Shown one piece after another: positions 13,707 through 33,290 of a stretch of DNA of 64,000 nt. The translations under genes and the position numbers were made by a program. Location: assembly GCF_013407925.2 (NCBI RefSeq), contig NZ_CP060201.1, positions 6,557,001 to 6,621,000 of the forward strand, read 5' to 3'. The notes under the pieces were generated by a model. It worked only from the letters and a program-made list of their open reading frames with translations. It was not told the DNA's origin and made no database searches. Source of the stretch: Pseudomonas protegens (lineage in GTDB: Bacteria; Pseudomonadota; Gammaproteobacteria; Pseudomonadales; Pseudomonadaceae). The first letter of the stretch is position 1, and each line of letters opens with the position of its first letter.

Positions 13707-13724
13707 GTCCAGCCCCGGGACTCA
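13704..13724. terminator. Hairpin formed by two convergent stop codons
   Basis: TGAGTCC, a 7-base loop, then GGACTCA form a perfect 7-bp stem. The TGA of the crotonase gene and the TGA of the opposing kinase-fold gene are the two ends of the stem. There is no T-tract, so terminator strength is uncertain. Confidence 0.4.
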
Positions 13725-14954
13725 GGCCGGACCGCGCAATGGCTGGCAGGCTTCCGCCAGGGCGGCGCGCAACGCCTGGCACAGACGCTGGGGGTCGCCG
13801 CCCTGGCGAAACCCCTCGACCTGGCGCTGCAGCTCGGCGAAACACCGGCCCTCGGCGCTGCGTGCCAGGCTCAGGCGCGGATCGGGCTGGACGTAGCGCG
13901 GATCGTCCGGCGTCAGGTACAGGCCGTTGAGGTTCTGGTAATCGGCGTCGATCCAGGCGTACAGGTGATGTTCGAAACGCTCGGCAAACCGATAGCGGCC
14001 AAAGTCCATCACCTGCAATTGCAACGGCGCCACGCCGGGCACCCCGGCCAGTTGCACATTGACCCCGTCGATCAGCAACGGCGCCCCCCGGTTGGCGCTC
14101 AACAGGCGTTGCAGCGTCGCCGCCACCTGAGCACTGACCGTCACCCTCTGCTCATCGCGCCTGACCTGCAGTTCGCCGTTCTCCCGGCACAGGTGAAAGC
14201 GCACCGCGCCGCAGCTGCTGGCGGTCAAGCCGTAGCTCCGCAGCAGAAGCTCGGCCTGCATCAGGGCCCCGGCCAGCTCGGGGCCCTGCCAATAGCGTTG
14301 CCACTGGCAGCGCGGGCGGGTGCAGGCCCGGCGCAACAGCAGCACCGCCGGTTCCGCGGCTCGCCCGTCATGCCACAAGGCATCGAAGCCCAGGTCGATC
14401 AGGGCATAGGCCGGCAGTGGCGTGATCGCCGCGCCGGCGTGGCTCATGGCGGCGAACACCAGGTGCTCCATCAGCACTTCGTGCACCGCCTCGGCCAGGG
14501 TCAGCAAGCCGTTGGAATGGGGCAACTGCGGGGCTTCGTCCGGCGGCACGCCAATGCCCTTGATGTCGAACAGCACCTGCTCGCTGGCCGGCGCGCACAG
14601 CACCGCGGCGCGCCCATAACGCGGCGGACGCCAGCCCGTTACCCGGCGGTCGTCCAGGGCAATCGGGGTGTTGATGTCCTGGGCCGCCGCCTGGCTGGTG
14701 GATATATAAGCGGCGTGCTCCAGCAGCCAGCGGTCGATGGCCTCCTCCGTTGCCCCCTCCCAGGGGGCGTCGAAGTCAGCGCGCAGCACCGGATAGTTGG
14801 CGAACAGCACCCGCGCACCGGCCACTCCAAGCAACTGTTCGCTGCTCAGGGTCTGCCCGCTCTGGGCGTAGTCGGCCAGTCGTTGCACCCGTGGGCCTGC
14901 GGCGAAAGGCAGGTTCAGATCGTGCTGGGGTTGCCAGGCGGCGGGATTGTTCAT
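13722..14954 (-). CDS. SelO-like kinase-fold protein, putative peptide-modifying enzyme
   Basis: A 410-residue soluble protein. I read a kinase-type fold closest to SelO (YdiU): LFDIKGIGVPP with a nucleotide-binding lysine at about 132 (SelO has L-K-G-x-G), AEAVHEVLMEH with a helix-C glutamate near 159, a LLRRACTRP strand, a catalytic-loop asparagine in IDGVNVQL (about 299) and a DFG in QVMDFGRYRF (317-319). SelO transfers AMP from ATP to proteins; related folds phosphorylate or glutamylate. Its ATG overlaps the stop of the DegT-like gene (ATGA), and both follow the repeat-peptide gene. I infer that it uses ATP to modify that peptide. The similarity is distant and motif-based, so the reaction is unknown. 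It is the last gene of the long operon. Confidence 0.6.
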   Translation of the reverse strand: MNNPAAWQPQHDLNLPFAAGPRVQRLADYAQSGQTLSSEQLLGVAGARVLFANYPVLRADFDAPWEGATEEAIDRWLLEHAAYISTSQAAAQDINTPIALDDRRVTGWRPPRYGRAAVLCAPASEQVLFDIKGIGVPPDEAPQLPHSNGLLTLAEAVHEVLMEHLVFAAMSHAGAAITPLPAYALIDLGFDALWHDGRAAEPAVLLLRRACTRPRCQWQRYWQGPELAGALMQAELLLRSYGLTASSCGAVRFHLCRENGELQVRRDEQRVTVSAQVAATLQRLLSANRGAPLLIDGVNVQLAGVPGVAPLQLQVMDFGRYRFAERFEHHLYAWIDADYQNLNGLYLTPDDPRYVQPDPRLSLARSAEGRCFAELQRQVEGFRQGGDPQRLCQALRAALAEACQPLRGPA

Positions 14955-15949
14955 CGAGTGTCTCCGGCCCAGGCATCCAGACGCCCGGGGTGGTCGAGGG
15001 CGGCGATCGGGTCCAGCAGGACCCAGTTGCGGCGCAGTTCCAGGCTGGCTTGCGGCCCCTGGGCCACCTCGCCACGGCCGCGCAGCATGGGCAGCTCCCG
15101 CAGCGCGCCGGACGCCGGGGCGCAGATCCCCAATGCTTCGGCATGGGGGCTGTGGCGCAGGCGTTCGAACAACTGCGGTTCACGGGTGCGGATCGCCAGG
15201 TATTGACCGTTGGGCAGCGCCGATCCGGCCGCGGTCCAGGGCTCCAGGCCGGCATCGCGCAAGCGCGCCAGCAGCCCGGGCATCTGCTGCCGCAGGCGCT
15301 GGCTGCGGGCCTGGGCCCTGGCGACAGCAGGCATCAGCGCCGGCAGGGCATGAATCGACAGGGCCGGGCTCAAGGCCGGGCAGGCGCGGGAACGCTGGCC
15401 CGGCGACCAGACGTCGATATCGCCATCCACCGCGAGGTCGCCGAACAGCGCGCCCCCGCCGCCAATGTCCAGGGCCTTGCCGTGGCCCAGGGAGGTGACC
15501 ACCAGCGATGCGCCGGGACAGCACAGATCCCAGGCACCGGCGCTGTCTTCGATGATGGGCAGGCTTGGGCCGAGCAACTGGCGCAAGGCCGGGATGTCGC
15601 AAGGCAAGCCGTATTGATGGACCGCGATCACCGCGTCCAGGCCAGGGATATGGGGCGCCAGCGCCTCGCTGCTGAGCAGCAGGTCGGCGGCATTTTCGAT
15701 AATCACCGGTATCGCGCCGGCATTGAGGACGGCGGCCACCACTTGATGGCAGGTGGCGGCCGGAACCGCGACCCGCCAGGTGGCGGTGGCCCCCAGCTGG
15801 CGCAGCGCCAGTTCCAGCGCCGCGGTGCCGGAGCCGACCAAGGCACCGTGGCGCCGCTGATAAAACTGCGCGAGCCAGGACGAGCACGGCAGCCGATCGG
15901 CCTCCCGTGCCCGCCACTGGCCATCGGCAGGACCTGGAACTACTTGCAC
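14951..15949 (-). CDS. DegT/DnrJ/EryC1/StrS-type PLP-dependent enzyme
   Basis: About 332 residues from GTG at 15949, which overlaps the end of the repeat-peptide gene; an alternative GTG at 15988 lies deeper inside the repeats. Family marks are VGSGTAALELAL (PLP phosphate binding, about 38-49), AVHQYGLPCDI (110-119), IIEDSAGAW with the ring-stacking aspartate at about 135, and SLGHGKALDIGGGG with the Schiff-base lysine at about 158. Relatives transaminate keto sugars, and some act on other carbonyls. No sugar-pathway gene is nearby. Tight coupling to a repeat peptide upstream and a SelO-like protein downstream (4-base overlap) suggests it acts on the peptide or supplies a small molecule to it. 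That role is inference. Confidence 0.75.
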   Translation of the reverse strand: MQVVPGPADGQWRAREADRLPCSSWLAQFYQRRHGALVGSGTAALELALRQLGATATWRVAVPAATCHQVVAAVLNAGAIPVIIENAADLLLSSEALAPHIPGLDAVIAVHQYGLPCDIPALRQLLGPSLPIIEDSAGAWDLCCPGASLVVTSLGHGKALDIGGGGALFGDLAVDGDIDVWSPGQRSRACPALSPALSIHALPALMPAVARAQARSQRLRQQMPGLLARLRDAGLEPWTAAGSALPNGQYLAIRTREPQLFERLRHSPHAEALGICAPASGALRELPMLRGRGEVAQGPQASLELRRNWVLLDPIAALDHPGRLDAWAGDTR

Positions 15950-16449
15950 TTGTCCATGGCGCAGGCAGTCAAGGCCTCGACCTTGCACTTATCCATGGCA
16001 CAAGCAGTCAGGGCTTCAACTTTGCATTTATCCATGGCGCAGGCGGTCAAGGCTTCGACCTTGCACTTGTCCATGGCGCAAGCGGTCAGGGCTTCGACCT
16101 TGCACTTGTCCATGGCGCAAGCGGTCAGGGCTTCAACTTTGCATTTATCCATGGCGCAAGCGGTGAGGGCTTCGGCCCGCGGGCCGCCGATGCGCCAGCT
16201 GGTGAACTTGCTCTCCGGCAGCGCGCCGCGCTTGACCACATCCAGGTGCAGGGTGCGGGCTTCATGGTCGTTGCATTCGAGCAGGATCTCGTCCTCGGCG
16301 ACCGCGAAGTGATCGTGCAGCAGGCAGAGTCCGAAGCGATCCAGGTTGCCGTGGCGCTCCAGTAGCTCATGCAGGTCATTGATGAATTGCGCATCAGACG
16401 CCCCCAGTGGCATGGCTTCGTCAAAGGAGGGATTGGTGTGTCCGTTCAT
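15940..16449 (-). CDS. Putative RiPP precursor with six tandem Cys-containing core repeats
   Basis: A 169-residue protein starting at 16449, with GGAG 8-9 bases upstream. Residues 1-91 form a non-repeated, acidic N-terminal region (for example DRFGLCLLHDHFAVAEDE) that could act as leader or recognition domain. Residues 92-169 are six back-to-back units of VEALTACAMDKCK, identical except that the first unit begins with A. Each unit has two cysteines four residues apart and two lysines. It has no signal peptide or membrane segment. The next two genes, both overlapping, encode a PLP enzyme and a kinase-fold protein. Repeated cores behind a leader, next to tailoring enzymes, is the layout of multi-core RiPP precursors; a metal-binding repeat protein is the alternative. 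Confidence 0.75.
   Translation of the reverse strand: MNGHTNPSFDEAMPLGASDAQFINDLHELLERHGNLDRFGLCLLHDHFAVAEDEILLECNDHEARTLHLDVVKRGALPESKFTSWRIGGPRAEALTACAMDKCKVEALTACAMDKCKVEALTACAMDKCKVEALTACAMDKCKVEALTACAMDKCKVEALTACAMDKCK
15943..16176 (-). repeat. Six 39-bp tandem repeats encoding 13-residue units
   Basis: Six contiguous 39-bp units end one base before the stop codon. In the minus-strand frame all differences among units are synonymous (AAG/AAA, GAC/GAT, GCC/GCT, ACC/ACT, TTG/CTG/CTC, TGC/TGT, GAA/GAG, GTC/GTT), apart from one V-to-A at the first residue. This shows selection on the peptide, not on the DNA. Confidence 0.95.
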
Positions 16450-16516: not shown

Positions 16517-19500
16517 TCATGCACCTCCTTGTTCCGGTGGAACCTTGCTTGCGGATACCCAGAGGGTGTCGATGCTCAGCAGCGGTGGCTGGTTGTCCGC
16601 GGCCACCGCGCCGCGCGCCAGTTGCGCCGGATCGTCGGCGCTGAAGGCCCGCAGGGTCAGGTCGACCCGGGCGTTGCCCTGGAGCGTGACCTGTTCGGCC
16701 AGCCGCCAGCGGTCGATGGCCTGGCTGAAGGCGCTGGTGAAGGCCGGCGGGCTGTTCAGCGAGGTCGCCACCGGCAACAGCAGCGCCGCCGGCAGCACGG
16801 TGCGCGCGACCACGCCGGGCGCTGCGACCTCGTAGCTGTAGCGGCCCTCCATGCCGACCTGCACCGTGGTGCCATTGCTGCCGGCGCCCAGGGCGGCGAA
16901 AAACACCTCCAGGTAGTCGTCCAGGCTGGCGTTCGGCACCTTCAGGTTGTCCAGGGAGAAGCTGCCTTGGCTGATGTGCGGGCTGATGCTGTCGACAAAG
17001 CGCACCACCGGCGTCGAGAAGCGGAACAACGGGTTGGTCTGCAGGGTGCCGATGTCCGCCGCGGGGAACAGGATGCGGTTGCGCTCCACCGACAGCGAGG
17101 CCCAGGCGTTCTGGTGGTCGAACAGGTTGAGGGCCGGCAGGCTGGTGCGGCGCTCGTCGATCAGCAGGGCGTCCGCGTAGTCGAGCCAGACGGCCGGCTG
17201 GCTGCCCTTGAGCCGGTAGCGGTAGGCGATCAGCCCCGGGTTGCTCGGATCGACCACGCTCACCGCGTCGTACTCTTGCGGTGCGATCTGCACCAGCGGC
17301 GCCGGCAGGCTGACCTTGCCGAACTCGGGCAGGGTGGCGCTGATCTGCCCGCTGGCCGGATCGTAGCTGGCCGCCACCTGATTGATGCTGACGTCCAGCA
17401 GCAGGGTTTCGGCCCGCTCCTGGCCATCCACCGTGACCGGGGCCAGTACCTGGCTGAAGCTGCAGGTCAGGGCCTGGGGCGCGACAAACGCCGCGTTGCT
17501 GCGCAACAGCGGCCGGGCCCAGGCGTCATAGGCCTCGGTGACCTGCTGGACGATGTAGACGAAGGCCTCCACCGCCTGTTGCGCAGCGGCAATCTGCACC
17601 GCGGTAGGCTCGCCGAAGTTGATCGCGCTGAGGTTGTCCTGCATCGCCACTTCAATGCTCGGGTACACGCTGACGAACTGCGCCAGGGCGGTGACCAGGC
17701 TCTTGTCGACACTGCGCAACGCAGCATCGACGGTCGGCGTGTTGAGGGCGATGGCCACGTTCAGGCTGTCCTGGGCCGTGCCGCGCACCAGTGAGTCGAA
17801 GGCGTAGGTCCATTTGCTCAGGTCCGAGACTTGCTGCGGCACCGGGGCCCAGGCCGTCGCCGTCTGCCCCTGGATGGTCGGCGGCTCGGGCAGGGCCCGC
17901 AGCAGCACCGGCAGGTTCAGGGTCTGGCCGTCGGCCAGGGGCACCCGCAAGGGGCCGGAGATCAGCGAGATCCAGTTCGACTGGGTGTAGCCGCTGATGC
18001 CCGGCACGTTGCGCACGTCATGCTCCAGGTGGCTGATCTGCAGCTCCAGGTCCAGCGGCACGTAGCTTCTTGCCGCCTCGTTGCGCGAATTGAAGACAAA
18101 CGCCAGGGCGCTTTCCCCTGGGGCGTCGGGCAGGCCGATGCGACCGCTGCCAAAGGCATAGTTGTCGTTGCCGGCCTGCGGCGCTTCGCTGTTGCCCGCC
18201 ACTTTGGCGGCGCTCGCCACCGTTGGCTGGCCGTACAACGATAGGGGCTCGCCGGTGGCGCTGCCTTGCACCGAGAAGCCGACGATGGCGGTGGTGCTGT
18301 AGGCCGAATACAACTGGTTGAGCAGGGTCTGGCGCAGCTTCTCGCCCGCCGCGGCCCGCGCCGGTCCATCCTGCGGGCCCGCCGAGAGCACCGGCTTGAT
18401 GGTCGATGCAATAGCGTCGGCCAGGGTCTGCTTGGCGCTGAGGATTTTCCCCAGGTTGCCGTCCTTGAGCGGGTCCTTGCTGCCCAGCAGGGTGTCGAGC
18501 AGAAACACCGAGGGCGCGTAGGTCGGCGCGAGGAAGCCGTCGATGGCCTTGAGGGCGGTTTCGAACCACAGGTTCTGATCGACCCCGGTGAGTGTCAAGG
18601 TCACTGGATCGCCGCTCGGGAATGGCTGGTCCGGCTGGTAGTTGGGGTAGATCTGCACGCTGTCCGAGGTCAGGCTGCGGGCGATCGGCTGGGCGGCGAA
18701 GTAGCCCGGGGCCGGATCGATGCGGTAACGGATGCCGTCGTTGCCGTCGCCGAGGGCGAAGCGCGCGGCCCACAGAGTCTGGCTGCGGCCGTCCGGGGTG
18801 CTGCCCGGGTCCGCGGTGCCGCTGCCGACCCGGGTCATCCAGGCCCCGGCCCGCTGGAACAGGGCCTCGAAGGCCCGGGCGAACTGGCTGTAGCCGCTGG
18901 TGCTGGCGCTCAGCGCGTCGGGGACCGGCAGCAGGGTGCTGGTCACCGCCACGCCCCCTTCCAGGCCGGCCACATCCGGCTCCACCAGCGCCGCCACCCG
19001 GCGCAGGCCGAGGGTCAGGCTCAGGGGCAGGATCGAGCCCGGAGCCAGGGCGTCGATGTCCACCGCCAGCTTCAGTTGCACCGTGGCCGGCGCGACGGGG
19101 CGGGCGCCCTGGACCACTTGGGCAAGGTACAGGATCACCCCGTTGACATAGTCCAGCAGCGGCTGCGCCTGGCTGTCGTCAAGCCGGCTCAGGGGCTGGG
19201 CGAACAGGCTGTTGACCAGCTCCACGCTGACCGCGCGGCCCTGGCACCAGGGCAACTGCAGATCCTTGTAGGACTGGTTCAGCTGGTAGTAGATCAGGCT
19301 GAACATCTCCAGGTCCTTGTCGGCCTGGACCTTGACGTCGCCACCGCCGGCCGGGTCATAGCTGGAGGTGTCGAGGCTCAGGCTGATCACCAGTTGCGCG
19401 CCACCGGCGACGGCTTCGTAGGTATAGAAGCTGCGGGTATTGGGCCAGGCCGACAGGGCGATCAGCCGGTCGCAGTAGCGCAGCGGCAGCGGCGGGTGAT

Positions 19501-22500
19501 TGAGGCTGCCCGGATAACCGGGCGTGGGGGCCTGGAAGGGGGTGACGGTGATGTTGCCGAAGATGTCCAGCCAGGTCAGGTTGACCTGGGCGAAGCTGCC
19601 CACGCCACGGTAGGGGTTGTCCGCGGCGCTCGGCAGCCCGGGCCGGGCCGGCACTGGCGCGGCGTTGCTGGTGGCGCGCCGGGCCAGGCCGAGGGTCTGC
19701 TGGTAGCTGTACTGGCTGTCTTCGGCCAGGGCATCGAGGGCCCGGGCGCGGCTTTGCGGATCGCGCATGGCCTGGCGGTGGGCCTGGGCCTCGGGCGAGT
19801 CGACGCCACTGTCCGGCCGCTGCGGGCCGAAGGGCAGGGCCAGCTCGCTGGCGCTGAACCAGGGTGAACCGTCGAGTCCGGCGGACAGCACCGAATACAG
19901 GTTGTACAGGTAGGCGCTGGCGTAGCCGTCCGGGTCCAGGCTCGGTGAATCCACCGGCGGCGGGTTGTTGCGCAGCACACTGAAGGCCGCGTTGCCCTGG
20001 TTGAACACCGCTTGCAGATCGAAGGTCTGGGTGTCGATGTTCAGGCTGCTGCCGACGCTGAACAGCCCGGGGACCTGCGCGGCGCCCACCGCCAGGGCAT
20101 CCAGGTCGAGGCCGTAGTAGCCGGCCAGAGACTGCAGGCTGTTGCCCGGCGCCAGGCTGGCGTCGACGACATAGGTCAGGGCCGGGATGAACAGCGCCAC
20201 GCCGCCGGCGGCGCTGACCCCGGGGTTGAGGTTGGCGATCTGCGTGGCGCTGATCGGCTGCAGCGCGCCCGCCGAGTAGTAGCGCGCCAGGTTGTCGAGA
20301 ATGCTCGCGCTCTGGCCATTGCCGGCGCTGGCCTCGGCCGGGGTCACCAGGTGGATGATGCCGTCCACCGGCACCTGCACTGCCTTGCTCAGCGTTACCC
20401 CGGCATTGAGCTCGGCGATGCGTCCAGTGCCGATGCCGTAGAAGGCCGCGAGGCTGTCCAGGCTGTCGCCGGCGCTGGTCGGCTGGCTGCTGTCGGCGGT
20501 GGCGGCCGAACCCAGGGTCATGTGGCTGCCTTGCTGGATCACCGTGTCGGTGCTGACGAAGGCGTTGACGAAGTTGCACAGGCGGCCGTCGAGCGCGTCG
20601 CGGGGGTAGGTCACCACCAGGGTCAGGGTGGCCGTGCCGCTGTCGTCGAAGATGCTGTCGGGCAGGCCGGCGGCGGCGATCGCATCGTAATAGCTCAGGT
20701 AATAGCCGCCGGAGCGCACGGTAGACAGTTCCCAGAGCAGCTTGACCACTTCCTCGGGCGGATTGAGGATGCCCCGCGGCCCGACTTCTTCGGCCAGGCG
20801 CGCGGCCATCAGGGCCGGCGGCGGGTTGGTTTCGGTGGACAGGTTGGTCTGGGTGAGGAAGGCCAGGAAGTCGCTGGCGGCCTGGCTCAGCAGGTTGCTG
20901 GCCTTGGCGTTGCCCTGGGGCATCAGCAGGAACTGGCCGCTGATGATCGCGCTGCCCAGCTCGCTGACCGCGATCAGCAGGCGCTCCAGCAATTGCGCAT
21001 CGGTGGCCGACGGGCCGAGCAGTTCATAGGTGTAGGCCAGGTTGCTGCCGCTGCCAGCGATGGCCCCGGGTTCGGCCTGGGGCAGGCGCTTGATGGTGAA
21101 ATCGACCCGGGTCGCGTAGCTGTAGGCCGGGATTTCGCGGCGGGTGGTTTCCAGGGTCGCCGGGTCGGTGGACACCTCGCACGGGGTGAACGCCGGCAGG
21201 TAGGGGATTTGCTGCGTCAGCTGCGGCAACTGCCGGGCGAGGTTGCCGACCCGCTGGTTGATCAGCTGGATCAGGCCGTCGGGCAGGGACCAGAGCATGG
21301 GCTGCACGCTGGCGCCGCCCTCGCTGCTGGCCCGCAGCCCCGGCTGGCAGAGGTTGCGCAATTGCTGCAGGTCGGCGGTCGACCACAGGGACACGCTTTT
21401 CACCGCGTAGTCTTTCGGGCTGCGGGCCACGGTGGGCAGCAGCTCGATGCGCGGCGCCGGCTGGAACTTGCCTTGCCGGGCGTAGGCCAGTACCCCGCTG
21501 AGGTTGCTGTAGGCCTGATTCAGGTTCATCGAGCCGCTGCTGGCCCCGGCGATCTGCACGAACGACAGATCGACCCCGTGGCTGGTGGCGGCCCGGCTCA
21601 GGCTGATGGGCACGTCGCTGCCGGGCAAGAGGTCGGCCGGGGTCGGGAACTGCTGCCCGGTCAACTGGTACAGGCCATAGGCGTTCTGCTGGGCGGGGTA
21701 GAGAAACGCCGGGCTCAGGCTCAGGCCGCCCATGCCCGCCGGGTTCGCCGGCAGGCGCAGGCCGTAGGCCAGAAAGCGCGAGAGCATGCCCGCCAGTTGC
21801 GACAGCTGGTCGGTGGTCACCAGCAGATTCCACAGGTCCTCGGTGTACAGGCTGTTGAGCGAGGTCAGGGTGATCTGCGCCTTGGCGAACAGGGGCGCCA
21901 CCCTGAAGTTGGCCGACGCCGGGTCGCTGAACAGGGCCATGGCACTGACGCCGAAGCGCGCGCCGGCGCTGTTGAGGCTGTCGCCGGCGGTGCGGTACGC
22001 CAGGTTCGGCAGCAGCAGCGGCTGGCCGGCCAGCAGCAGCCCGGGCATGGCGTAGAGCGCACTGTCCTGGGCCAGTTGCGCCAGCGTGACGCCCAGGGTC
22101 CGGGCCAGGCTGTTGAAGGTTTCCCCGGGGCCGGTGGTGCACTGGTGGATGTCGTTGCCCACCGGCAGGCTGATCACCTGATTGGCGGCGATCACCAACG
22201 AGTTGCCATTGGCCAGGATCAGCCCCGAGGCGCTGGTGCTCCAGCGTGCCGGCACGCTGCCGTCGGACCAGGCCGCGGCGACCTTGGCCAGGGTGTCGCC
22301 GCTCTGCAGGGTGTAGGCCGGCAGCGGGATATCCAGGCTCAGGCCGTCGCTCAGGGCGACTTCGGCGTTGGGCCGGACGATGTCGTCCAGGGTCAGGTTG
22401 TTGCCGCGCAGGTCGTTGGTCCAGCCCAGGATCGCGCTGACGGAGTTGCCATTGGCCGTGGCGTAGGCGTAGTCGTCGAAGGCGTTCAGCGCGACCTGCA

Positions 22501-25500
22501 ACAGTTGCCGGCCGATAACCATGAAGGCATCGGTGAAGATCACCGCGGCCATGGATTCGCTGTCGTCCGCCACAGCCCGCAATGCGGGTGCCGGCGGCGG
22601 CTCCTTGCTGGTGACCAGCGCCACCAGTTCCTTGAACATCTGCGCGACATTGCTGCGGTAGGTGCTGTTGGTGCCCACGTAGTGGGCGAAATCCACGGTG
22701 GCGCTGCCGGCACTGGCCAGGGGCACGCCCAGGGACAGACCGTCGAACACCGGAAACAGCACCGAGCCGGCTTGCAGCACCTGCTGGATCTGCGCCTGGT
22801 TGCTGGCGTCGGGCAGGGTGATGCTGACCTCGAAGGACGACAGGAAGGTCAGCAGCTCGCTGATGCCGAACGGCGGGTTGGCCAGGTCGGCCAGGCGTTT
22901 GATGTCCTCCTCGAGCATGGCCTTGTCCACCAGGGTGCCGAGGATGTCGGCCAGGGTGTCCTGCTCGCTGCTGGCCGAACCCAGGCTGCCCACCAGCCAG
23001 GGCAGGTAGTCGGCGCACAGGCGTTCGAAGCTGCTGTTGCCGGCGCTGTCGGCCGCGGCCCGGGTCGGCGAGGGCGCGTCCATGGTCAGCAGGAACACGA
23101 AGGCTCCCTGCTGCTCGGCGTAGTCGCTGGCGCCCTCGTTGCACAGCACGGTGAATTGCGGCGTGGCGTAGAGGTTCAGCAGCGGTTTGCCGGCGGCGCG
23201 CAGCAGCGTCATCGGTTGCGGCGTGGTGGCCCGCCGCGCAAGGGCCAGCTGGGCATGGCGGGCCTGGCGCGCCAGCAGCAGGCCGGGTTCGGCCCAGGGC
23301 GCCGGGCCGCTCTGGATGGCGTTGATCTCGAAGCGCGCCGAGACGTCGGCATGGAAGGAAAAACTGATGCTGAAACTGAACAGGCCGAGGTCGATCTTGA
23401 CCTTGACGCTGACCTCCACCGTGGCCCGGGCGGCAATTGGAATCGGCTTGTAGCTCTCGTAGGTCAGGGACAGCGACAGGGTGATGCGCACGTTGACCGC
23501 GGCCGAGATGATGGCGAAGTCGATGCTGCCGTAGAGCAGGCCGATGACCCCGACCGTGCCCTGGATCTTGAAGTAGTAGTCGTCCTGCACGCTCTTGCCG
23601 GCCGGCACCAGGGCGGTGGACGGGTGATAGGCGTGGAAGGCGGCGATGGTGCCTTCCAGAATGCCGAACACGGTCAGGGCGAAACCGGCCTTGAGCGGCC
23701 CCTTGACGAAGTTGTAGCCCAGGCCCAGCTGCAGGCCGAGGCCGAAGACGATCACCGGGTCGAAGGTGCCCTGGGTGGTTTTCGGCACCTGGGTGGCGGT
23801 CACCGACGACAGCTTGCCCAGGTAGAAACCGCCGGCGCCGAGCACCGGCACGCCGTAGACGATCGCGGAAATCGAGAACGAGCGGGTGAAGTCCAGGTTG
23901 TAGGGAAAGCCGATGTCGATGAAAAAGTCGCCGTTGGTGTAGATCTTCACCCCGATCTCCGGCAGCACGATGGACACCGCGCCGAAGTTGAGGTTGCGGA
24001 TGCTGTCGGGGAAGGTCCATTCGATCTGGTACACGCCGACGTCGTCGGTGATCTTCTTGTACAGGATGTCCAGCACCAGGTTGCCCAGGGCCTTGGCTTT
24101 CTCCCCGGCCAGGGCCAGGCGCAGGCCATAGAGGTTGGGGTCGTTGAACACCAGCATCAGGTCGACGGTCCAGTCCTTGCCGGTCTTGAGCAGCAACAGT
24201 TGCCCGGCGATCAGCCAGTCGCTGTTGCGGCTGTAGTAGGGCACGCCCTTGCTGCCGCTGTCGCTGGGGTTCAGCGGGTTGCTGGAACCGGTGGTCGACG
24301 GCACGTCCTTCAGGGCGTCGATCACCGCCTTGGTGTTGGTGAAGCTGTCGTAGCCGCTGATGGCCACCCGCTGGCCGAGGACCAGCAGCGGCAGGCTGAA
24401 GTAGTCCGTGCCCTGGCCCGGCACCGTCGGCAGCTTGTCCACTGGCTGGCCTTTGCTCGGGTCCAGCAGGTTGCTCCAGTCCTGCTGCTCCTGGGGGTTG
24501 TTGCCCTTGAACACCGAGGATCCGTCGATGCCCAGGGTGATCTTGTCCACGCCATTGACCTTTTTGCGCTCGAACACCAGGCCGTCGATGCTCATGAACC
24601 CCAGGTCGATCTTGCTCGCCAGGGTGTACTTGGCGCTGATGCTGGGCACGCTGCTGCCGCTGCTGTTTTCCAGGTTGATGATCAGCGACAGGCCATCGAG
24701 GGAAATCTGGTTGAGCACGTCCCAGGGCGAGCTCAGGGTGAAATACGGGTCGCTCAGCGATTGCATGAGTTTCTGGATCAGCCGGCCCAGGCTCCAGTTC
24801 TTCAGGGTGAAGGTCAGGGCCTTTTTGTCGACCTGATAGATCGCCGTCAGGCCCTCCCAGGACAGGGTCAGCTGGGCGTTGCTGCCCTGGTTGTCGGGGG
24901 CGAAGCTGTAGCCCAGCAGCACGCTGTCGTTGAGAAAGCTGAAATCCCACAGGGTGGTGGCGCTGCCGCTGTACTGCTGGTTCGCCGGCTTGCTGGCGTC
25001 GTAGCTCAGGCTCAGGGTGGCCAGGGTGTCGACACTGAAGGCCTGGCCCAGGTTGAAGGTCCAGCGCAGGCTGCCGGCCACCGTGTAGCTGTCGAGCGGG
25101 GTGTTGCCGGTGCTCAGGCTGGCGTCCACCTCCAGGGTGTTGACCAACAATTGGCCGGGCAGGAAATCCGGAAAGGCAAAGGTTCCGCCGAAGCTGAGGA
25201 ACTGGCTGACCAGCTGCTGCACGTCCACCGGCTGCGCCAGTTGCGCGGCGACTTGCCAGGTGGCCGGGGTCTTGCTGCCGTCGTAGTCGAGGCTGGCATT
25301 GGCGAAATACGGGCCGATGCCGACCAGGCCACCGATCCCCGCCTGGTAGGTGGTCACCGCCGGGGCGTTGCTGCCACTGGCGCTGGTGGGCGTGGTGGCC
25401 TTGATGTACAGCTGGCCGTCGGTGACCGAGAGAATCGGCTTGCCAGCGACGCTGAACAGGTTCAGGTCGAGCTCGAAACCGGCGTTGAAGGCGTAGCTCT

Positions 25501-26944
25501 TGGCACCCACATCCAGGCTCAGGCCGACGTCGGACAGCGAGGCGTCGACGAAACTCTTGGGGATGCGGATCAACTGAGCGGTCAGGGTGGCGATCAGGTC
25601 ATTGAGGTTGGCCGTGCCGTCGAAGCGCGCCAGCAGTTGCAGGTCGGAATTGAACTGGACAAAGAACAGGCCGTTTTCGCCGACGGTCTTGCCCTTGAAC
25701 ACCTCGGGCAACAACAGGAAGCGGGTCTGGAACAGAAAGCTCTGGGCGTTGCCCTCGGGCAGGAAGTTGATCCCCCACACCAGTTCGAAATCGGTGACGC
25801 CGAACACCAGTTGGTTGGTCGGGTCCTGCAGGGGCACCCAGGGATGCTCGACATTGATCACCGTGGGGTCGGCGCCCAGGGTCACGCTGGCGGTGCTCAG
25901 GGCCAGTTTCGGCTGGGTGACGCCACTCAGGGCGAGGCTGCGCAGGCCGATTCCGGAGAGAAACTGTTGCAGCACCGGTGGCGTGCCGCTGAAGAAGCTG
26001 CCGTTGTTGTCCAGCAGGCCGATGATGGTTGCCGGGGTCAGCAGGGCGCTGCCGTCGTCGCTGTGGCCGAGGTAGAAATTGAAGGCGCTGCCGTTGTTGA
26101 TCTGGGCCAGGGCGCGCAGTTGGTAGTTGACGGGCTGGTTGCTCTGGTCGGTGAGTCTCAGGTTGAGGCCGAAATACAGGCTGACCTGCTGATCGTAGAA
26201 GGCTTCGGCCGGGTCTTCGCCATCCTGCAGTTCTGGCGGGCCGATGATCAGGCCGAAGACTGGGGCATTGACATTCAGGTACAGCAGCTTCAGCCCGTCG
26301 CTGACGTTGAGGAACGGCGCCTGCAAGGTGGTGGTGGGCATGAACACCTCGACCCCGTCGACCTTGGCGAAGTCCATGCTGCCAGTAAAGGGCAGGGCCA
26401 GGGTCGGGAATCCCAGGTTTTGCACCACCGCGACCGCGGTGCTGAGCTGGGGCGGCGGCGTCAGCTGGGCGGCGAAGCCCTGGCGCGGGCCCTGGCTGGC
26501 CTTGAAGGTGAAGACCGCGTTGCTGATTGCGGTCCACTTGAAGGGAATGCCGGTGGCGAAGCTCGACAGGTCGGCCCAGGTCCAACTGGCCGGGGTGGTG
26601 ACGATTTCCAGGCTCAGGCTCTGGGTTCCGACAGCACCCGTGAGGCCAAAGGTCAGTACCAGCCCCTGCTGGATGTCCTGTTGCAGGAAGCGCGCGCTGA
26701 CCCCGGTGACCTTGAAGCTCTGGGTGGCGGGGTTCAGCGGCTGCACGCTCTGCGCGGTGAAGTTGACCGTGAGCCCGGCGACCGGCGACTGGAAGGCCGC
26801 CTTGAGGTCGTTGTCCAGGGTCGCGGAGACGCTGACCGTGGCATCCGCCAGGCCGGCGATCAGGTAGTCGCGGGTGAGGACGATCGGCGCGCCGGCATCG
26901 CCGGTCAGGGCCGCGGCGAGGTTGCTCAGGGGGCTGTTGGCCAT
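16517..26944 (-). CDS. Giant 3475-residue beta-rich protein with LysM-like modules
   Basis: An uninterrupted frame starting at 26944 after AAGGAG. The first 1300 or so residues are beta-rich, with many short repeats of hydrophobic strands (for example LTFGLTGAVGTQSLSLEIV) and a run of amphipathic strands about residues 950-1250 (FDPVIVFGLGLQLGLGYNF). LysM-like modules occur at about 1540-1690 (TLQSGDTLAKVAAAW, GETFNSLARTLGV) and about 2150-2310 (AGDSLDSLAAFYGIG, GNSLQSLAGYYGLD). No signal peptide or catalytic motif is evident. It follows the nuclease-fold gene by 15 bases and precedes the repeat-peptide gene by 67 bases. LysM modules usually bind peptidoglycan or chitin. I do not recognise the family; DUF6603-type giants are a possibility. 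It may be a scaffold or an exported toxin-like protein. Confidence 0.8.
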   Translation of the reverse strand: MANSPLSNLAAALTGDAGAPIVLTRDYLIAGLADATVSVSATLDNDLKAAFQSPVAGLTVNFTAQSVQPLNPATQSFKVTGVSARFLQQDIQQGLVLTFGLTGAVGTQSLSLEIVTTPASWTWADLSSFATGIPFKWTAISNAVFTFKASQGPRQGFAAQLTPPPQLSTAVAVVQNLGFPTLALPFTGSMDFAKVDGVEVFMPTTTLQAPFLNVSDGLKLLYLNVNAPVFGLIIGPPELQDGEDPAEAFYDQQVSLYFGLNLRLTDQSNQPVNYQLRALAQINNGSAFNFYLGHSDDGSALLTPATIIGLLDNNGSFFSGTPPVLQQFLSGIGLRSLALSGVTQPKLALSTASVTLGADPTVINVEHPWVPLQDPTNQLVFGVTDFELVWGINFLPEGNAQSFLFQTRFLLLPEVFKGKTVGENGLFFVQFNSDLQLLARFDGTANLNDLIATLTAQLIRIPKSFVDASLSDVGLSLDVGAKSYAFNAGFELDLNLFSVAGKPILSVTDGQLYIKATTPTSASGSNAPAVTTYQAGIGGLVGIGPYFANASLDYDGSKTPATWQVAAQLAQPVDVQQLVSQFLSFGGTFAFPDFLPGQLLVNTLEVDASLSTGNTPLDSYTVAGSLRWTFNLGQAFSVDTLATLSLSYDASKPANQQYSGSATTLWDFSFLNDSVLLGYSFAPDNQGSNAQLTLSWEGLTAIYQVDKKALTFTLKNWSLGRLIQKLMQSLSDPYFTLSSPWDVLNQISLDGLSLIINLENSSGSSVPSISAKYTLASKIDLGFMSIDGLVFERKKVNGVDKITLGIDGSSVFKGNNPQEQQDWSNLLDPSKGQPVDKLPTVPGQGTDYFSLPLLVLGQRVAISGYDSFTNTKAVIDALKDVPSTTGSSNPLNPSDSGSKGVPYYSRNSDWLIAGQLLLLKTGKDWTVDLMLVFNDPNLYGLRLALAGEKAKALGNLVLDILYKKITDDVGVYQIEWTFPDSIRNLNFGAVSIVLPEIGVKIYTNGDFFIDIGFPYNLDFTRSFSISAIVYGVPVLGAGGFYLGKLSSVTATQVPKTTQGTFDPVIVFGLGLQLGLGYNFVKGPLKAGFALTVFGILEGTIAAFHAYHPSTALVPAGKSVQDDYYFKIQGTVGVIGLLYGSIDFAIISAAVNVRITLSLSLTYESYKPIPIAARATVEVSVKVKIDLGLFSFSISFSFHADVSARFEINAIQSGPAPWAEPGLLLARQARHAQLALARRATTPQPMTLLRAAGKPLLNLYATPQFTVLCNEGASDYAEQQGAFVFLLTMDAPSPTRAAADSAGNSSFERLCADYLPWLVGSLGSASSEQDTLADILGTLVDKAMLEEDIKRLADLANPPFGISELLTFLSSFEVSITLPDASNQAQIQQVLQAGSVLFPVFDGLSLGVPLASAGSATVDFAHYVGTNSTYRSNVAQMFKELVALVTSKEPPPAPALRAVADDSESMAAVIFTDAFMVIGRQLLQVALNAFDDYAYATANGNSVSAILGWTNDLRGNNLTLDDIVRPNAEVALSDGLSLDIPLPAYTLQSGDTLAKVAAAWSDGSVPARWSTSASGLILANGNSLVIAANQVISLPVGNDIHQCTTGPGETFNSLARTLGVTLAQLAQDSALYAMPGLLLAGQPLLLPNLAYRTAGDSLNSAGARFGVSAMALFSDPASANFRVAPLFAKAQITLTSLNSLYTEDLWNLLVTTDQLSQLAGMLSRFLAYGLRLPANPAGMGGLSLSPAFLYPAQQNAYGLYQLTGQQFPTPADLLPGSDVPISLSRAATSHGVDLSFVQIAGASSGSMNLNQAYSNLSGVLAYARQGKFQPAPRIELLPTVARSPKDYAVKSVSLWSTADLQQLRNLCQPGLRASSEGGASVQPMLWSLPDGLIQLINQRVGNLARQLPQLTQQIPYLPAFTPCEVSTDPATLETTRREIPAYSYATRVDFTIKRLPQAEPGAIAGSGSNLAYTYELLGPSATDAQLLERLLIAVSELGSAIISGQFLLMPQGNAKASNLLSQAASDFLAFLTQTNLSTETNPPPALMAARLAEEVGPRGILNPPEEVVKLLWELSTVRSGGYYLSYYDAIAAAGLPDSIFDDSGTATLTLVVTYPRDALDGRLCNFVNAFVSTDTVIQQGSHMTLGSAATADSSQPTSAGDSLDSLAAFYGIGTGRIAELNAGVTLSKAVQVPVDGIIHLVTPAEASAGNGQSASILDNLARYYSAGALQPISATQIANLNPGVSAAGGVALFIPALTYVVDASLAPGNSLQSLAGYYGLDLDALAVGAAQVPGLFSVGSSLNIDTQTFDLQAVFNQGNAAFSVLRNNPPPVDSPSLDPDGYASAYLYNLYSVLSAGLDGSPWFSASELALPFGPQRPDSGVDSPEAQAHRQAMRDPQSRARALDALAEDSQYSYQQTLGLARRATSNAAPVPARPGLPSAADNPYRGVGSFAQVNLTWLDIFGNITVTPFQAPTPGYPGSLNHPPLPLRYCDRLIALSAWPNTRSFYTYEAVAGGAQLVISLSLDTSSYDPAGGGDVKVQADKDLEMFSLIYYQLNQSYKDLQLPWCQGRAVSVELVNSLFAQPLSRLDDSQAQPLLDYVNGVILYLAQVVQGARPVAPATVQLKLAVDIDALAPGSILPLSLTLGLRRVAALVEPDVAGLEGGVAVTSTLLPVPDALSASTSGYSQFARAFEALFQRAGAWMTRVGSGTADPGSTPDGRSQTLWAARFALGDGNDGIRYRIDPAPGYFAAQPIARSLTSDSVQIYPNYQPDQPFPSGDPVTLTLTGVDQNLWFETALKAIDGFLAPTYAPSVFLLDTLLGSKDPLKDGNLGKILSAKQTLADAIASTIKPVLSAGPQDGPARAAAGEKLRQTLLNQLYSAYSTTAIVGFSVQGSATGEPLSLYGQPTVASAAKVAGNSEAPQAGNDNYAFGSGRIGLPDAPGESALAFVFNSRNEAARSYVPLDLELQISHLEHDVRNVPGISGYTQSNWISLISGPLRVPLADGQTLNLPVLLRALPEPPTIQGQTATAWAPVPQQVSDLSKWTYAFDSLVRGTAQDSLNVAIALNTPTVDAALRSVDKSLVTALAQFVSVYPSIEVAMQDNLSAINFGEPTAVQIAAAQQAVEAFVYIVQQVTEAYDAWARPLLRSNAAFVAPQALTCSFSQVLAPVTVDGQERAETLLLDVSINQVAASYDPASGQISATLPEFGKVSLPAPLVQIAPQEYDAVSVVDPSNPGLIAYRYRLKGSQPAVWLDYADALLIDERRTSLPALNLFDHQNAWASLSVERNRILFPAADIGTLQTNPLFRFSTPVVRFVDSISPHISQGSFSLDNLKVPNASLDDYLEVFFAALGAGSNGTTVQVGMEGRYSYEVAAPGVVARTVLPAALLLPVATSLNSPPAFTSAFSQAIDRWRLAEQVTLQGNARVDLTLRAFSADDPAQLARGAVAADNQPPLLSIDTLWVSASKVPPEQGGA

Positions 26945-26959
26945 CTGTCTTCTCCTTGT

Positions 26960-28327
26960 TCAGACCGTCACAAACAGGGCCAGGTGATCGCTGGTGGAGC
27001 GGATGTGCCCCAGGTTGCGCCAGCCGCGGTAGCGTTGCCGATCGCCCGCGGCGAATGCCGGGGCGGGGGCGGGGGGCGCCGGGATCCAGGCGAGCGGCGG
27101 TGCCTGGAAATCGCTGGCCATGGCCACCAGGCCCATGGGCGCACCGCCGGGCGCGGGGTTGACCACGTTCAGCGGCACCCCGACCACGGTGTTGGCGATG
27201 GTGAAATTGCCCGCCGCGCCGCCGCGCACCAGGATGTTGTCGATGGAATACAGGCTGCTGCTGTTGGACGAACCGATGTAGCGGTAGCCCGGATAGGGCA
27301 CGGCTCCGGCGTTGGTCGACCAGAAGATGCTCGCGTTGCGACTGCGCAGGTGGGTGGCGAAGTAGCCGGTGTAGGCCTCCAGCGCCGGCGGCGGGGCCAG
27401 GGCCGGAGGTTGCAGTTGCAAGCCGTAGCCCAGGGCGGTGAGGGCGGCATAACGCCCCGGGTCGTTGCCGTTCTGGCTCAACAGGTTGACGTTGAAGTCG
27501 CCGGTGATGATCCGGGTTTCCAGCGCGCCCAGGGCGGCGCTGATGTCGCGCACATTGGCCAGGGCGTTGAGGTAGGCGTTGGCCGCGACATATTGCGGCG
27601 GCGAATGGATGGCGAACAACGTGAGGTTGCGCTGTACCACCACTGGCGGGCCGTCGACGGTTTCGCAGAAGGTCACCATGTAGGGTTCGCGCAAGCCGCC
27701 GTAGTTGATCGCGGCGCCGAAATTGTCGACGAACGCGACCCGCGCCGCGCAGCGGCTCTCGTTGAGGTTGCCCGGGTTCAGCGCCGTGGGCGGAATGGGC
27801 CGGTTGGGCACGCTGAAGCAAGTCTGGGTCTGCAACGCCGGGTAGTTGCCGGCGGCCGGCGGGGCCAGCACCTGGGGGTTGAAGCTGATGCCACTGCCCG
27901 CCGGCGACCAGGCGTTGGGGCCGGTGAACAAGCGCTTGCCCGCCGCCACGCCGCCGCCCGCCGGAATCACCGGCTTGTAGAACACCGCGACGCCCTCGGC
28001 GCGCCCGGCCTGGCCGACCACCAGGGGCGGCACCAGGTTCCAGGGCACGCCGGTCTGGTTGCGGATGCGCAGCAGCAGTTCGGCGCAGCCCTGCCAGCCG
28101 CCGGTGGGGGAAATCAGCGATCCGGGGCCGTGGCTCGGACCGCTGGCCGTCTCGACCACGACGAAGATGTCCGGGTTGAACGCGGTGATATGGGCCAGGA
28201 TCAGGGCCAGTCGGTCGGCGGCGTCAAGGTCAGGAATGAAGGCGCCGTTGCGATCGCGCTTGGTGCTCAGCGGGCGGATCTTGTTGTAGCCGAAGCTCTC
28301 GATGTTCCAGTACAGGACCCGAGTCAT
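26960..28327 (-). CDS. Endonuclease/exonuclease/phosphatase-fold protein
   Basis: A 455-residue protein whose ATG at 28327 overlaps the stop of the upstream gene by 4 bases (ATGA). It shows the DNase I-like superfamily motifs in order: LYWNIESFG near the N-terminus, FNPDIFVVVETAS, a histidine in LFAIHSPPQ, GDFN in RIITGDFNVN and the terminal SDH in STSDHLALFV. These residues bind metal and cut phosphodiester or phosphate-ester bonds. Members act on DNA, RNA, phosphoinositides or sphingomyelin. No secretion signal is visible, and the substrate is unknown. It is fourth in the eight-gene minus-strand operon, between two very large structural-looking proteins, so it may be an effector activity carried by them. 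Confidence 0.75.
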   Translation of the reverse strand: MTRVLYWNIESFGYNKIRPLSTKRDRNGAFIPDLDAADRLALILAHITAFNPDIFVVVETASGPSHGPGSLISPTGGWQGCAELLLRIRNQTGVPWNLVPPLVVGQAGRAEGVAVFYKPVIPAGGGVAAGKRLFTGPNAWSPAGSGISFNPQVLAPPAAGNYPALQTQTCFSVPNRPIPPTALNPGNLNESRCAARVAFVDNFGAAINYGGLREPYMVTFCETVDGPPVVVQRNLTLFAIHSPPQYVAANAYLNALANVRDISAALGALETRIITGDFNVNLLSQNGNDPGRYAALTALGYGLQLQPPALAPPPALEAYTGYFATHLRSRNASIFWSTNAGAVPYPGYRYIGSSNSSSLYSIDNILVRGGAAGNFTIANTVVGVPLNVVNPAPGGAPMGLVAMASDFQAPPLAWIPAPPAPAPAFAAGDRQRYRGWRNLGHIRSTSDHLALFVTV

Positions 28328-31300
28328 GGCGTCACCTCCGATGGTCCGGTCAATGCCGGTTGCGTGGACTGGCCCGACTCCACGGCGAGCAGGCTGGCGG
28401 TCTTGCTCTGCGGGTCTTTGACGTAGGCGGCGTACCAGCCCAGGCTGCCGGAGGATTGCGGGTCGCCGAACAGGAAGAACTGCAGGGTGGCGCCCGGCGG
28501 CAACTTGGCGATGCCGAGGATCTTGATGCCGATATCGGTCAGTTGCAGGTTGAAGAACCTGGCCTGGGGGTCGGTCTGACCGGGGATGGTCTGGTACAGC
28601 AGTTTGATCGGTCCGGTGGAGACCTTGATGATGCCCTGCAGGGAAAACACGCTGGCCGACGGCGCGGCGCCGGGCAGGCTGAGGCCGACAAACAGCATTG
28701 GGCTGGTGTCGCCACTCTTGCTGCCGGGCGACCAGGCGATCAGCAGGTCGGACTCGAAACCGGTGCCCGACACCAGGGACCCAGGGGAGCCCATGGTGAC
28801 CTTGTAGACGATGCCCGACCAGGCGCCCGACAGCGCCTTGAGCGCCAGGTTCTGCGGCAGCACCGGGAGGAAGCCATAGTCCGCGGGCTTTTTCTGCGCC
28901 GGTGCCTGGATGAACTGCTTGAGCTGCAGGGTGAAGCCCTTGTACAGACTCTGTCCGCGCACCTGGCTGGTGGCCGGGTCGAACCCGAGGTTGTCGGGGT
29001 TGAAGGCAAAACCCACGGCATTGGGCGTGGCGCTGGGAAAGGCCATGGCGATTTCCAGGTTGGTGTAGGCCAGGCCCTGGTTGCTCGGGCTGCCGTCGGC
29101 GCTGCCGAAGGACAGCAGGTCGAAGGGCCCGTCCGAGGTCTTGAGCAGGGTGAAATCCAGCTTGCCCCACAGCAGAAAGCGGCTGGCGGTGGTGACCCCG
29201 CCGTCCGGGCTGCCCAGGGTGTTGAACTGGATGCGGTTGACCGAGGCGGCCGGCAGCACGTTGCTGTCGAGGTTGAACAGGTAGCTCTGGCTCTGCTCGA
29301 ACACGTAGGTGGTGGTGTCGTTCTGTTGCAGGGCGCTGCCGTCGAGCACCATGGCGTTCACCGCGCTGGGCTGGCCGGCGCGCAGGGTGGCGCGGATCGG
29401 CGAGCCGAACAGCAGGTCCAGGCTCAGCTGGATGCGACTGTTGAAGGTCACCAGCCGGGATTGGCGGAACAGCGCCTGCAGCTGCAGGACACTGAAGGCG
29501 TAACCATTGCTGGTGCTCAGGGCCACCGGCATGTCCGGGGCCGCGCCGTTGGCCTGGGCCTGCTCATAGGCGGGGTTCTGGTAGTCGATCAGGCCGAACA
29601 GGGTGGAGATGCCCTGGATATCCAGGGTGTCGCCCTGTTGGCTGATGCGGCTGACACTGGCGCCAAAATGGTGGGCCAGGAAGCGGCTGTAGTCGATGCC
29701 CGCGGCGATGCCTGCCAGTTGCTCGGGCAGGCTGTCCAGGGGCAGGTCGGCGTTGAGCACCATGAAGCCGTTCCAGGCCGGGTCGCTGACCTGGGCGACG
29801 AAGTCGGCGTAGAGGCTGTCGGGGCTGGCCGCGGCCTTGACCTCGGCGACGGCGATGAAGTCCTGCAGCCACTGGGACAGACCGGTGTAGGCCAGGGTTT
29901 CCAGGCCCGGCGCCAGGTCCGCGGTCTTCGAGAACGTCTCGGGCATGGTCCAGCGATTGGGGTTGTCGATGCGCTCCTTCAGGCTGCCGGCGCAGTACTT
30001 CATGATCAGCACATTGCGGTAGCTGGTGGTTTGCACGCCGACGCCGATGTTGGCGATAAAGCGCCAGTCGGCGATGTCCATGCGGTTGCTGAAGCTGGCG
30101 CCCTGGGTGAAGAACGGCAGCGGATTGACCCCCACCAGAAACAGCTGGTTGGTCTGCAAAGCCTCGTGCAGGGCCTCGCTGGGCTGCACGAAGGCAAAGT
30201 CCAGCGGCCCCTGGGCGGATAGTGAGCGGGCCAGCAGCACCTTGGCGTAGCCGATGCCGTCGGCGTCCAGGTCCACCAGCAGGCCTTGTGGAGTGGTCGC
30301 CCGATCAGGTTGTGCCGCGTCGACGGTCAGCAGCCGTTGCAGGCGCCGGGCCCGCGCGGCTTGTTTGCCCGGCAGGGTCGCGGCGCTGATCAGGCTCTTG
30401 CGCGAGGCGGCGAGGATCTCGCTTTCAAACTGGGTCAGGTTGAGGCTGGCATTGCTGCTGACCCCCGCGTAGGGCACCAGCGGGAAAGCAAACCCGGCGT
30501 CCTGGGGCAGCGGGGTGCTCGGCGCGGCCGGGGCCAGCAGCGGTGTAGCGCCGTTGCTGCGGCTCTGGCCATAGAGCGGGCTGCCATCGGGCTGGGCGCT
30601 GTAGGCCGGGGTGGAGGCGCCGGCCACCAGGCTGCACCAGGAGGTCCGGTGCGCGTCGTTCAGCAGGGCGCTGACCGCGCCACTGGTGGGCGTGACCAGG
30701 CTGCTGGTCTGGAACGGAAACACCGGGGCATAGGCCGGTTGCGCCGCCAATAGGCGCAAGCGGTCGTTGTCTTGCGGGCTCAGGGAAGAGTTGTAGGCGG
30801 TAAAGCTCAGCCACTCGGTGCCGAAGATCCCGCACAGCAGGTTCTGCCCGGCACTGGCGGCCGGCAGGCTCAAGCCAAAGTCGCCGGCCAGGGTCAGGCT
30901 GTAGCTGCCGCCTTGGGCACAGAACACCAGGCTGGCGGCATAGGGCCGGGGCCAACCGTTGGCGTCCAGGCCATTGAGCGGGATCAGGCTGATCGGGTTG
31001 CCGGCGGTGCTGCGCCACTGGCTGGGCAACGCGGTCGTGCCGGTGTTGGCGAAGCTCATGGCCGTGCGGATCAGGCCGGCGGCCAGTTGCGCCGCAGGGA
31101 TGTTCTTATTGAGCGGGTCCAACGGGTCGAGCACGCCGCCCATGGTCAGTTTGGCGGGCATGCCGTTGGGGTTGAACACCGGGTAATTGAGCACGCTCTG
31201 GCCGCCCGCGGTGTTGGCCACATAGGTAAAGCCGGTCTGGAAATACTTGAGGGCGGGCTGGCTGCTGTAGGTCAAGGCGTAGGTCAGGCTGCCGGCCTGA

Positions 31301-31899: not shown

Positions 31900-31901
31900 G
31901 T

Positions 31902-32816: not shown

Positions 32817-32868
32817 CCGTTGCCTGGTCACGCGAGGGTACCGTCCATGTCCCGTATTGCATGAAGCA

Positions 32869-32916
32869 AAGCCGGCGCCATGCCGGCTTCGCAAATGGGC
32901 TCCGGCCTAGGAGCCC
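32869..32916 (-). terminator. Two hairpins after the first gene of the long operon
   Basis: AAGCCGGC/GCCGGCTT (8 bp, 32869-32889) and GGGCTCC/GGAGCCC (7 bp, 32897-32916) lie between the 111-residue gene and the rest of the operon. Neither has a good T-tract on the minus strand. They could protect the short first message or partly stop transcription, so that the first gene product is made in excess. Confidence 0.4.
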
Positions 32917-32923
32917 GAGTCGA

Positions 32924-33259
32924 TCACGACAGGGTGAAGGTCCCGATGTTGGTGTTGTTGAACGGGGTTTCCGAGTTGCTGTCGATAATCACCCCGGTGA
33001 ACAGGATGCTGAACGCCGAGCCCACGTTCTGCAGTTTGACCTGGGCACCCTTGCGCAGGGTGACCGGGCCGGCGGAGGTGTCGGCGCTGAGAGTCTGGAC
33101 GGTCGCGGTGTTGTTGACCTGGGTGGCCCACAGCAGGTTGTTCTGATAGCTGAAGGTCACTTTGGTGGTCTGGTTGGGGTCGCCGTTGTAGGTCGCGGTG
33201 GACTGGCTGTTGATGGTCAGGGGGGTGGTGACGGTGTTTACCGAGGTGAAGGCGTTCAT
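32924..33259 (-). CDS. Small 111-residue Asn/Thr-rich protein, first gene of the long operon
   Basis: It starts at 33259 after a good AAGGA site. The sequence is rich in Asn, Thr, Ser and Val (NAFTSVNTVTTPLTINS, NNTATVQTLS, SETPFNNTNIGTFTL). It has no cysteine, no signal peptide and the look of a small all-beta protein such as a lectin-like or tube/sheath-like subunit. I do not recognise the family. It is followed by two hairpins and then the other operon genes on the same strand, which suggests high relative expression. A 14-bp palindrome lies 31 bases upstream of its start codon. Confidence 0.6.
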   Translation of the reverse strand: MNAFTSVNTVTTPLTINSQSTATYNGDPNQTTKVTFSYQNNLLWATQVNNTATVQTLSADTSAGPVTLRKGAQVKLQNVGSAFSILFTGVIIDSNSETPFNNTNIGTFTLS

Positions 33260-33290
33260 GTTGAATATCCTTTTCGTGTGTTGGGCATGA

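Follow-up and report, generated by a model that had tools for sequence, protein, structure and literature searches.

A 64-kb stretch of the 6.82-Mb, single-contig chromosome of Pseudomonas protegens (contig NZ_CP060201.1; hereafter the window) carries an operon-like block of eight minus-strand genes running from 33259 to 13722, which encode, in order, proteins of 111, 304, 1191, 455 and 3475 residues, a precursor with a repeated tail, a DegT-type pyridoxal 5'-phosphate (PLP) enzyme and a SelO-like kinase-fold protein. We consider the chances about even that this gene set makes a ribosomal, enzyme-modified multi-core peptide, in which the SelO-fold protein would adenylate the cores and DegT would catalyse a second step in Pseudomonas. 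More tentatively, and with less than even confidence, we propose a new class of ribosomally synthesized and post-translationally modified peptide (RiPP), in which a SelO-fold maturase would activate the Asp of C-x-x-D-K-C-K cores, one to nine of which follow a folded leader domain. The class would span Pseudomonas, Bacteroidota and Cyanobacteria and would include DegT in some lineages. An initial annotation of the window had placed a candidate RiPP system at 13722..16449; its three genes are indeed there, but the block extends upstream to 33259.

The precursor gene (15940..16449) encodes 169 residues, comprising a leader region (residues 1-91; 16177..16449) and six 13-residue core units (15943..16176), each with C-A-M-D-K-C-K. 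This architecture of a 91-residue leader and six units, already described in the initial annotation, is borne out by the open reading frame (ORF). Tandem Repeats Finder reported an array at 15943-16174 with periods of 39 (score 338) and 117 (score 394); three other arrays in the window scored just 52 to 63. Unit 1 is AEALTACAMDKCK and units 2-6 are VEALTACAMDKCK, the sole amino-acid difference being A for V in unit 1. When all pairs of units were pooled, 70 synonymous differences in 121 sites were counted against 7 nonsynonymous differences in 464 sites, in agreement with the earlier claim that the units differ synonymously but for one V-to-A change. The unit measures 39 nt, and its copy number, six here, ranges from 5 to 9 across seven Pseudomonas loci. 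When the window's first five units were compared with those of six other genomes, synonymous differences numbered 17 to 28 and nonsynonymous ones 0 to 9; the comparison is not strictly one-to-one, and because copy number varies, the synonymous divergence of units between genomes is inflated. The ratio of nonsynonymous to synonymous divergence (dN/dS) was lower in the units than in the leader in five of the six comparisons, although dN itself was higher in the units in three. The units are under purifying selection; each is kept at the protein level, and the array is therefore unlike a decaying one. A match of Lysostaphin_N (PF25533) to the repeat region (15940-16176; E 5.2e-5, but 23.7 bits with a cut-off of 60) was rejected and taken for a resemblance among short tandem repeats; one precursor relative, P0052, carries the Lysostaphin_N label in the database.

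Seven Pseudomonas loci were located via the SelO-like protein, and the precursor, DegT and SelO-like genes are adjacent in all seven (the window, G061, G325, G354, G310, G108 and PCL1601). The full set of eight genes is present in G354 and G310; of the other loci, G108 was covered equally far upstream. Among 398 Pseudomonas genomes, the SelO-like protein had matches in seven and the precursor query in 16. One SelO-like match (G091, E 1e-4) was dropped as spurious on inspection of its frame, and the six real SelO-like genomes are the same six that gave strong precursor matches, the remaining 10 precursor matches being leader-only or weak. The nearest named locus for the SelO-like protein, of two returned, was in Pseudomonas protegens FD6 (93%). 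In broader scans, the SelO-like profile matched 2 of 398 genomes of the phylum, one of them the window's own, and the precursor profile matched 3 of 369 genomes of the class, namely its own and two leader-only, as well as four genomes among 115 relatives of G108, two of them (G057 and G466) leader-only. Two scans of viral copies yielded no relative. In G108 (L033, L046) the block is decaying: very little is left of the 3475- and 1191-residue genes, and the precursor and DegT genes remain open.

Outside the Pseudomonas loci, a precursor match and a SelO-like match were treated as paired when they lay on contigs of equal base count. Six further pairs were obtained, on contigs of 24147, 118057 (Aquimarina muelleri), 14423, 187024, 4426 (a cyanobacterial bin, with adjacent locus tags) and 2769 bases. 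The identities of the two proteins rise together across these pairs (rho 0.99), a correlation that shared ancestry alone could produce. No DegT was matched in five of the six; within P0012-P0051, the 14,423-base contig alone joins DegT, SelO-like and precursor matches, and DegT was thus rejected as a constant partner. The expected co-occurrence of a repeat precursor with the enzyme pair was accordingly seen at every Pseudomonas locus and on only one further paired contig, and the proposal that DegT and the SelO-like protein together define the class did not survive, DegT not being a regular partner outside Pseudomonas. The class-defining enzyme is most likely the SelO-like protein, not DegT.

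The SelO-like gene (13722..14954) encodes 410 residues, and the predicted model of the protein has the SelO fold, with NRPS-independent siderophore (NIS) synthetases as second-best structural matches. As first annotated, the KGxG (here KGIG, K132), helix-C Glu (E159), Asn (N299) and DFG (D317) motifs are all present, and they are conserved in a family alignment of 45 sequences; these residues (Lys, Glu, Asn and the DFG Asp) are the ATP/Mg residues of SelO. R208 was noted besides. The motifs and predicted fold contradict the possibility, foreseen in that annotation, that the protein is unrelated to kinases, and its designation as SelO-like is supported by the predicted fold and, weakly, by profile alignment. 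We call it SelO-like rather than SelO because the PF02696 model is not matched. It also differs from SelO/YdiU in having 410 rather than about 480 residues and in lying beside a repeat precursor; a PF02696 gene is found elsewhere in the same genome (C1 2714419-2715774). A search of PDB sequences with the 410-residue protein alone returned no match, and a PDB profile search with the family returned four chance-level rows (E 0.38 to 0.86), none of them SelO.

The DegT-type gene (14951..15949) encodes 332 residues from a GTG at 15949, a start chosen as fitting the relative PCL1601, whereas the longest ORF begins at 15988 (345-residue frame). With the GTG start it overlaps the precursor gene by 10 nt, and its stop shares an ATGA with the SelO-like start at 14951-14954; both overlaps had been recorded correctly. 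The only Pfam match of the enzyme is PF01041 (DegT/DnrJ/EryC1/StrS; 63.3 bits, cut-off 19.8), over residues 39-179 of the 345-residue frame, and the second half, beyond this match, might accommodate a large substrate. Its best solved sequence match is AHBA synthase, with whose GK lysine K158 (numbered in the 332-residue protein) aligns; D135 aligns too, and we take the corresponding AHBA synthase residues to be the PLP lysine and aspartate, both of which are retained here. A protein search gave at least 90 DegT matches among 7996 candidates. Members of the family mostly aminate sugars, which, together with the resemblance to AHBA synthase, would suit a scheme in which a sugar or other small molecule is the product of DegT and the SelO-like protein, and the repeat protein either serves as a carrier or merely lies next to them without a shared function. 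We regard this scheme as very improbable, given the overlapping genes, the constant association in Pseudomonas, the five other precursor/SelO-like pairs without a matched DegT, and the lack of any Pfam match to sugar-pathway families besides DegT among the eight genes.

To characterize the precursor family, we ran a profile search that returned at least 136 relatives among 7997 candidates, of which the best 120 underlie the family counts. Motif units occur in the tail of 23 of these 120, in 1 to 8 copies each, and 13 of the 23 end exactly at C..DKCK. Lys follows the second Cys in 40/40 distinct units although it lay outside the search pattern, whereas the invariance of C, D and C over these 40 units is circular, the units having been selected by that pattern; precursors selected by pairing were used instead. 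Where a precursor is paired with a SelO-like gene or match (13 precursors), 130/130 tail cysteines lie within the motif, and in 65/65 units the second Cys comes five residues after the first, the stretch between them containing Asp and Lys/His. The spacers between units vary, being VE or IE in Pseudomonas types, SPVTIE in Aquimarina and APVV in the cyanobacterial bin. Furthermore, among relatives ranked by leader alone, C..D(K/H)C was found in 20 of the 24 listed matches with a leader identity of at least 50%.

The window's own units carry one Thr each, ahead of the first Cys. Ser, Thr and Tyr are absent within C..DKCK in all 23 motif-bearing precursors; seven of the 23 have some unit without Thr at the window's Thr position, and five have at least one 13-residue unit without any hydroxyl residue. 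Thr, one of the modifiable residues originally listed (Cys, Lys, Asp or Thr), was therefore rejected as a general target. P0084 and P0112, two precursors paired with a SelO-like match, lack Ser, Thr and Tyr in their first and their sole unit, respectively; an enzyme that takes the units as its substrate must thus act on Asp, Cys or Lys. NIS synthetases adenylate carboxylates, and because Asp is moreover the sole acid at a fixed place in all paired-precursor units, we favour Asp.

On this basis, a pathway may be envisaged. The leader would dock the SelO-like enzyme, which would use ATP to attach AMP to the core Asp through its side-chain carboxylate, a step resembling carboxylate adenylation by NIS synthetases. 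The amine of the neighbouring Lys or the thiol of a Cys could then capture the activated Asp, so that every unit would acquire a lactam or thioester cross-link. In Pseudomonas and a few others, DegT might subsequently swap an amino group and a carbonyl, and a protease from outside the block would have to free the units.

Hydroxyl-free units also fit a target outside the units, because SelO-type pseudokinases AMPylate proteins, SucA and glutaredoxin among them, and modify Ser, Thr or Tyr, according to the excerpted text of PMC8097203. The SelO-like protein would then AMPylate a hydroxyl in the leader or in another protein, for example the 3475-residue neighbour, with the repeats as a passive sensor or docking tail, and the large upstream genes do belong to the same block. 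In G108, however, the precursor and DegT genes stay open although the 3475- and 1191-residue genes are nearly lost (the SelO-like gene is frame-shifted too), and the lower dN/dS of the units than of the leader, within the limits of that comparison given above, also speaks for the units themselves. We judge an outside target distinctly unlikely.

The leader is predicted to form a domain of one helix and four strands, modelled confidently over residues 11-100 (block means 86 to 97); confidence is low from residue 107 onward, in the units. A Foldseek comparison of the leader model with the PDB gave 77 matches at E up to 10 and none at E 0.001, and neither the leader nor nine relatives matched any family above cut-off in Pfam and NCBIfam. 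The domain occurs also in stand-alone proteins and so is not private to this system. These proteins (P0064-P0171, L034-L038, L050, L062) form an uncharacterised family with RFG..LLH.HF, mostly of 105-145 residues, and some copies sit on Pseudomonas plasmids. The scanned DNA surrounding stand-alone leader proteins (L034-L038, L047-L050, L052) contained neither a SelO-like nor a DegT frame, and nor did the 9.6 to 20 kb covered for plasmid leader relatives in Streptomyces, Sinorhizobium, Thiodictyon and Planococcus.

Because these stand-alone relatives resemble metal proteins, metal binding is the main rival to a modified peptide: the two-Cys units would bind copper, zinc or an iron-sulfur cluster unmodified, and the SelO-like protein would regulate by AMPylation or act elsewhere. 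The Cys spacing with Asp and Lys/His between would suit such a site. It would not by itself explain the kept Asp, the final Lys or the exact DKCK ending in 13/23 precursors, and the precursor keeps company with a SelO-like gene in the seven Pseudomonas loci (there also with DegT) and in the six equal-size-contig cases. We therefore hold metal binding to be unlikely, though less so than the two alternatives above.

Several observations count against the proposed RiPP pathway, some of them in favour of metal binding. A close Cys pair is present in 87/97 of the listed non-motif relatives and a Cys pair with GH..H in 66/97, which gives them the look of metal sites, and four relatives with a leader identity of at least 50% (P0071, P0080, P0082 and P0129) end in two-Cys tails of another kind, without the motif. 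No protease or exporter was matched by Pfam among the eight genes, although one may be encoded elsewhere. Contig pairing accounts for just 6 of 39 precursor matches (P0012-P0051 without P0041) by an indirect, equal-size criterion; 23 of the 33 unpaired matches lie on contigs shorter than 5,000 bases, and the other 10 lie on longer contigs of up to 114,614 bases with no partner. In G108, the SelO-like gene is frame-shifted with the precursor still open. As regards the SelO-like protein itself, a second SelO Arg aligns with R215, which is kept in 27/45 sequences; the hhalign profile alignment to SelO is weak (E 0.00095 in one comparison, probability 22%), falling to E 0.071 and probability 0.8% for the single sequence against the genome's own SelO and to 80 columns at E 0.85, with no useful alignment, in global mode; and Pfam returned 0 families at E up to 1. 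Asp as the target is deduced rather than demonstrated. Finally, in Rhizobium phaseoli (L051) a leader-like protein one gene away from a distant SelO-like gene has a C-x3-C-x2-C tail and no C..DKC, and a search up to 18 kb from the distant SelO-like gene of G566 revealed no leader-like protein, G566 itself being the only match of the SelO-like search among 109 genomes of its genus. Enzyme pairs lacking a repeat peptide, which the initial annotation had named as contrary evidence, were not seen among close relatives, but distant SelO-like genes without a C..DKC peptide do occur (L043, L051).

The Rhizobium phaseoli region lies on a plasmid (L051, 1771-12544) and contains SelO-like, large intervening, leader-like and DUF2252 genes, with lysozyme-like and phospholipase D-like genes recognized by eye; no DegT match was found beside this SelO-like copy. 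In the window, the conserved block begins with the 111-residue protein (32924..33259), which has a sub-cut-off DUF4402 match, and continues, all on the minus strand, with the 304-residue protein (31902..32816; an N-terminal hydrophobic stretch was read by eye), the 1191-residue protein without a family (28324..31899), the 455-residue protein (26960..28327; a sub-cut-off Exo_endo_phos match of 23.1 vs 24.5 bits) and the 3475-residue protein (16517..26944), directly upstream of the precursor gene. The LysM domain of the last is the sole domain above the Pfam cut-off in these five genes (16517-33259). Intergenic gaps are short, from 107 nt at most down to the ATGA overlaps of the 1191-residue gene with the 455-residue gene and of the DegT gene with the SelO-like gene. 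A defence system was rejected, PADLOC giving no match for seven of the eight proteins (the 3475-residue protein was outside the set), as was an RNA element, Rfam giving nothing at gathering score over 12800-34600. A promoter scan of 33000-34200 found one weak site vs 0.7 in shuffles. Transposase-like, TniQ-like and integrase-like frames (34592-39524) flank the upstream side of the block, and two chaperone-usher fimbrial gene clusters lie at 41954-52008, all named by eye.

With regard to what defines a RiPP, the precursor gene holds a conserved leader and a C-terminal core, and a gene for a putative tailoring enzyme lies beside it; that this enzyme tailors the peptide itself we infer. In the open-access literature searched, SelO and RiPP occurred together as whole words only in PMC8449880, by its title a kinase-orthology method. 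The conserved precursor/SelO-like gene pair is not found described in the literature searched (mainly open-access, without bioRxiv). If the proposal is right, the block would represent a peptide-modification pathway of a kind not found described, the SelO fold would extend into natural-product biosynthesis, and the leader domain together with the SelO-like gene would offer a handle for genome mining. If the core is the substrate, the hydroxyl-free units predict action of a SelO fold on Asp, Cys or Lys, which to our knowledge would be new for this fold.

Among known systems, Nif11 and nitrile hydratase-type leaders likewise reuse a protein domain as a long folded leader, but the leader here matches no family above cut-off and no PDB fold at E 0.001. 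MNIO-modified peptides (bufferins) have an MNIO (multinuclear non-heme iron-dependent oxidative enzyme, DUF692) gene beside the precursor, whereas no Pfam match to one was found among the eight genes. The likeness to graspetides of the microviridin type lies in the possible multiple cores and an ATP-using enzyme: in the excerpted texts of PMC8939145 and PMC5934393, such an enzyme forms lactam or lactone links on precursors that may hold several cores. That enzyme is an ATP-grasp ligase, however, for which the eight genes gave no Pfam match, and the core here is built of Cys, Asp and Lys. In daptides, a PLP aminotransferase acts on the peptide in a RiPP route (PMC12670281, in excerpt), but it is a class III enzyme (PF00202) working with a C-terminal Thr, different from the DegT enzyme (PF01041) and C-terminal Lys found here. 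A kinase-fold protein works on the precursor in lanthipeptide pathways, as excerpts of PMC10604976 and PMC12291118 describe, class III lanthipeptide kinases phosphorylating Ser or Thr (PMC10604976) and SelO going unmentioned in the excerpted text of PMC12291118. Different from these pathways, in which Ser or Thr serve as partners for Cys, the precursors described here offer no such partner within C..DKCK.

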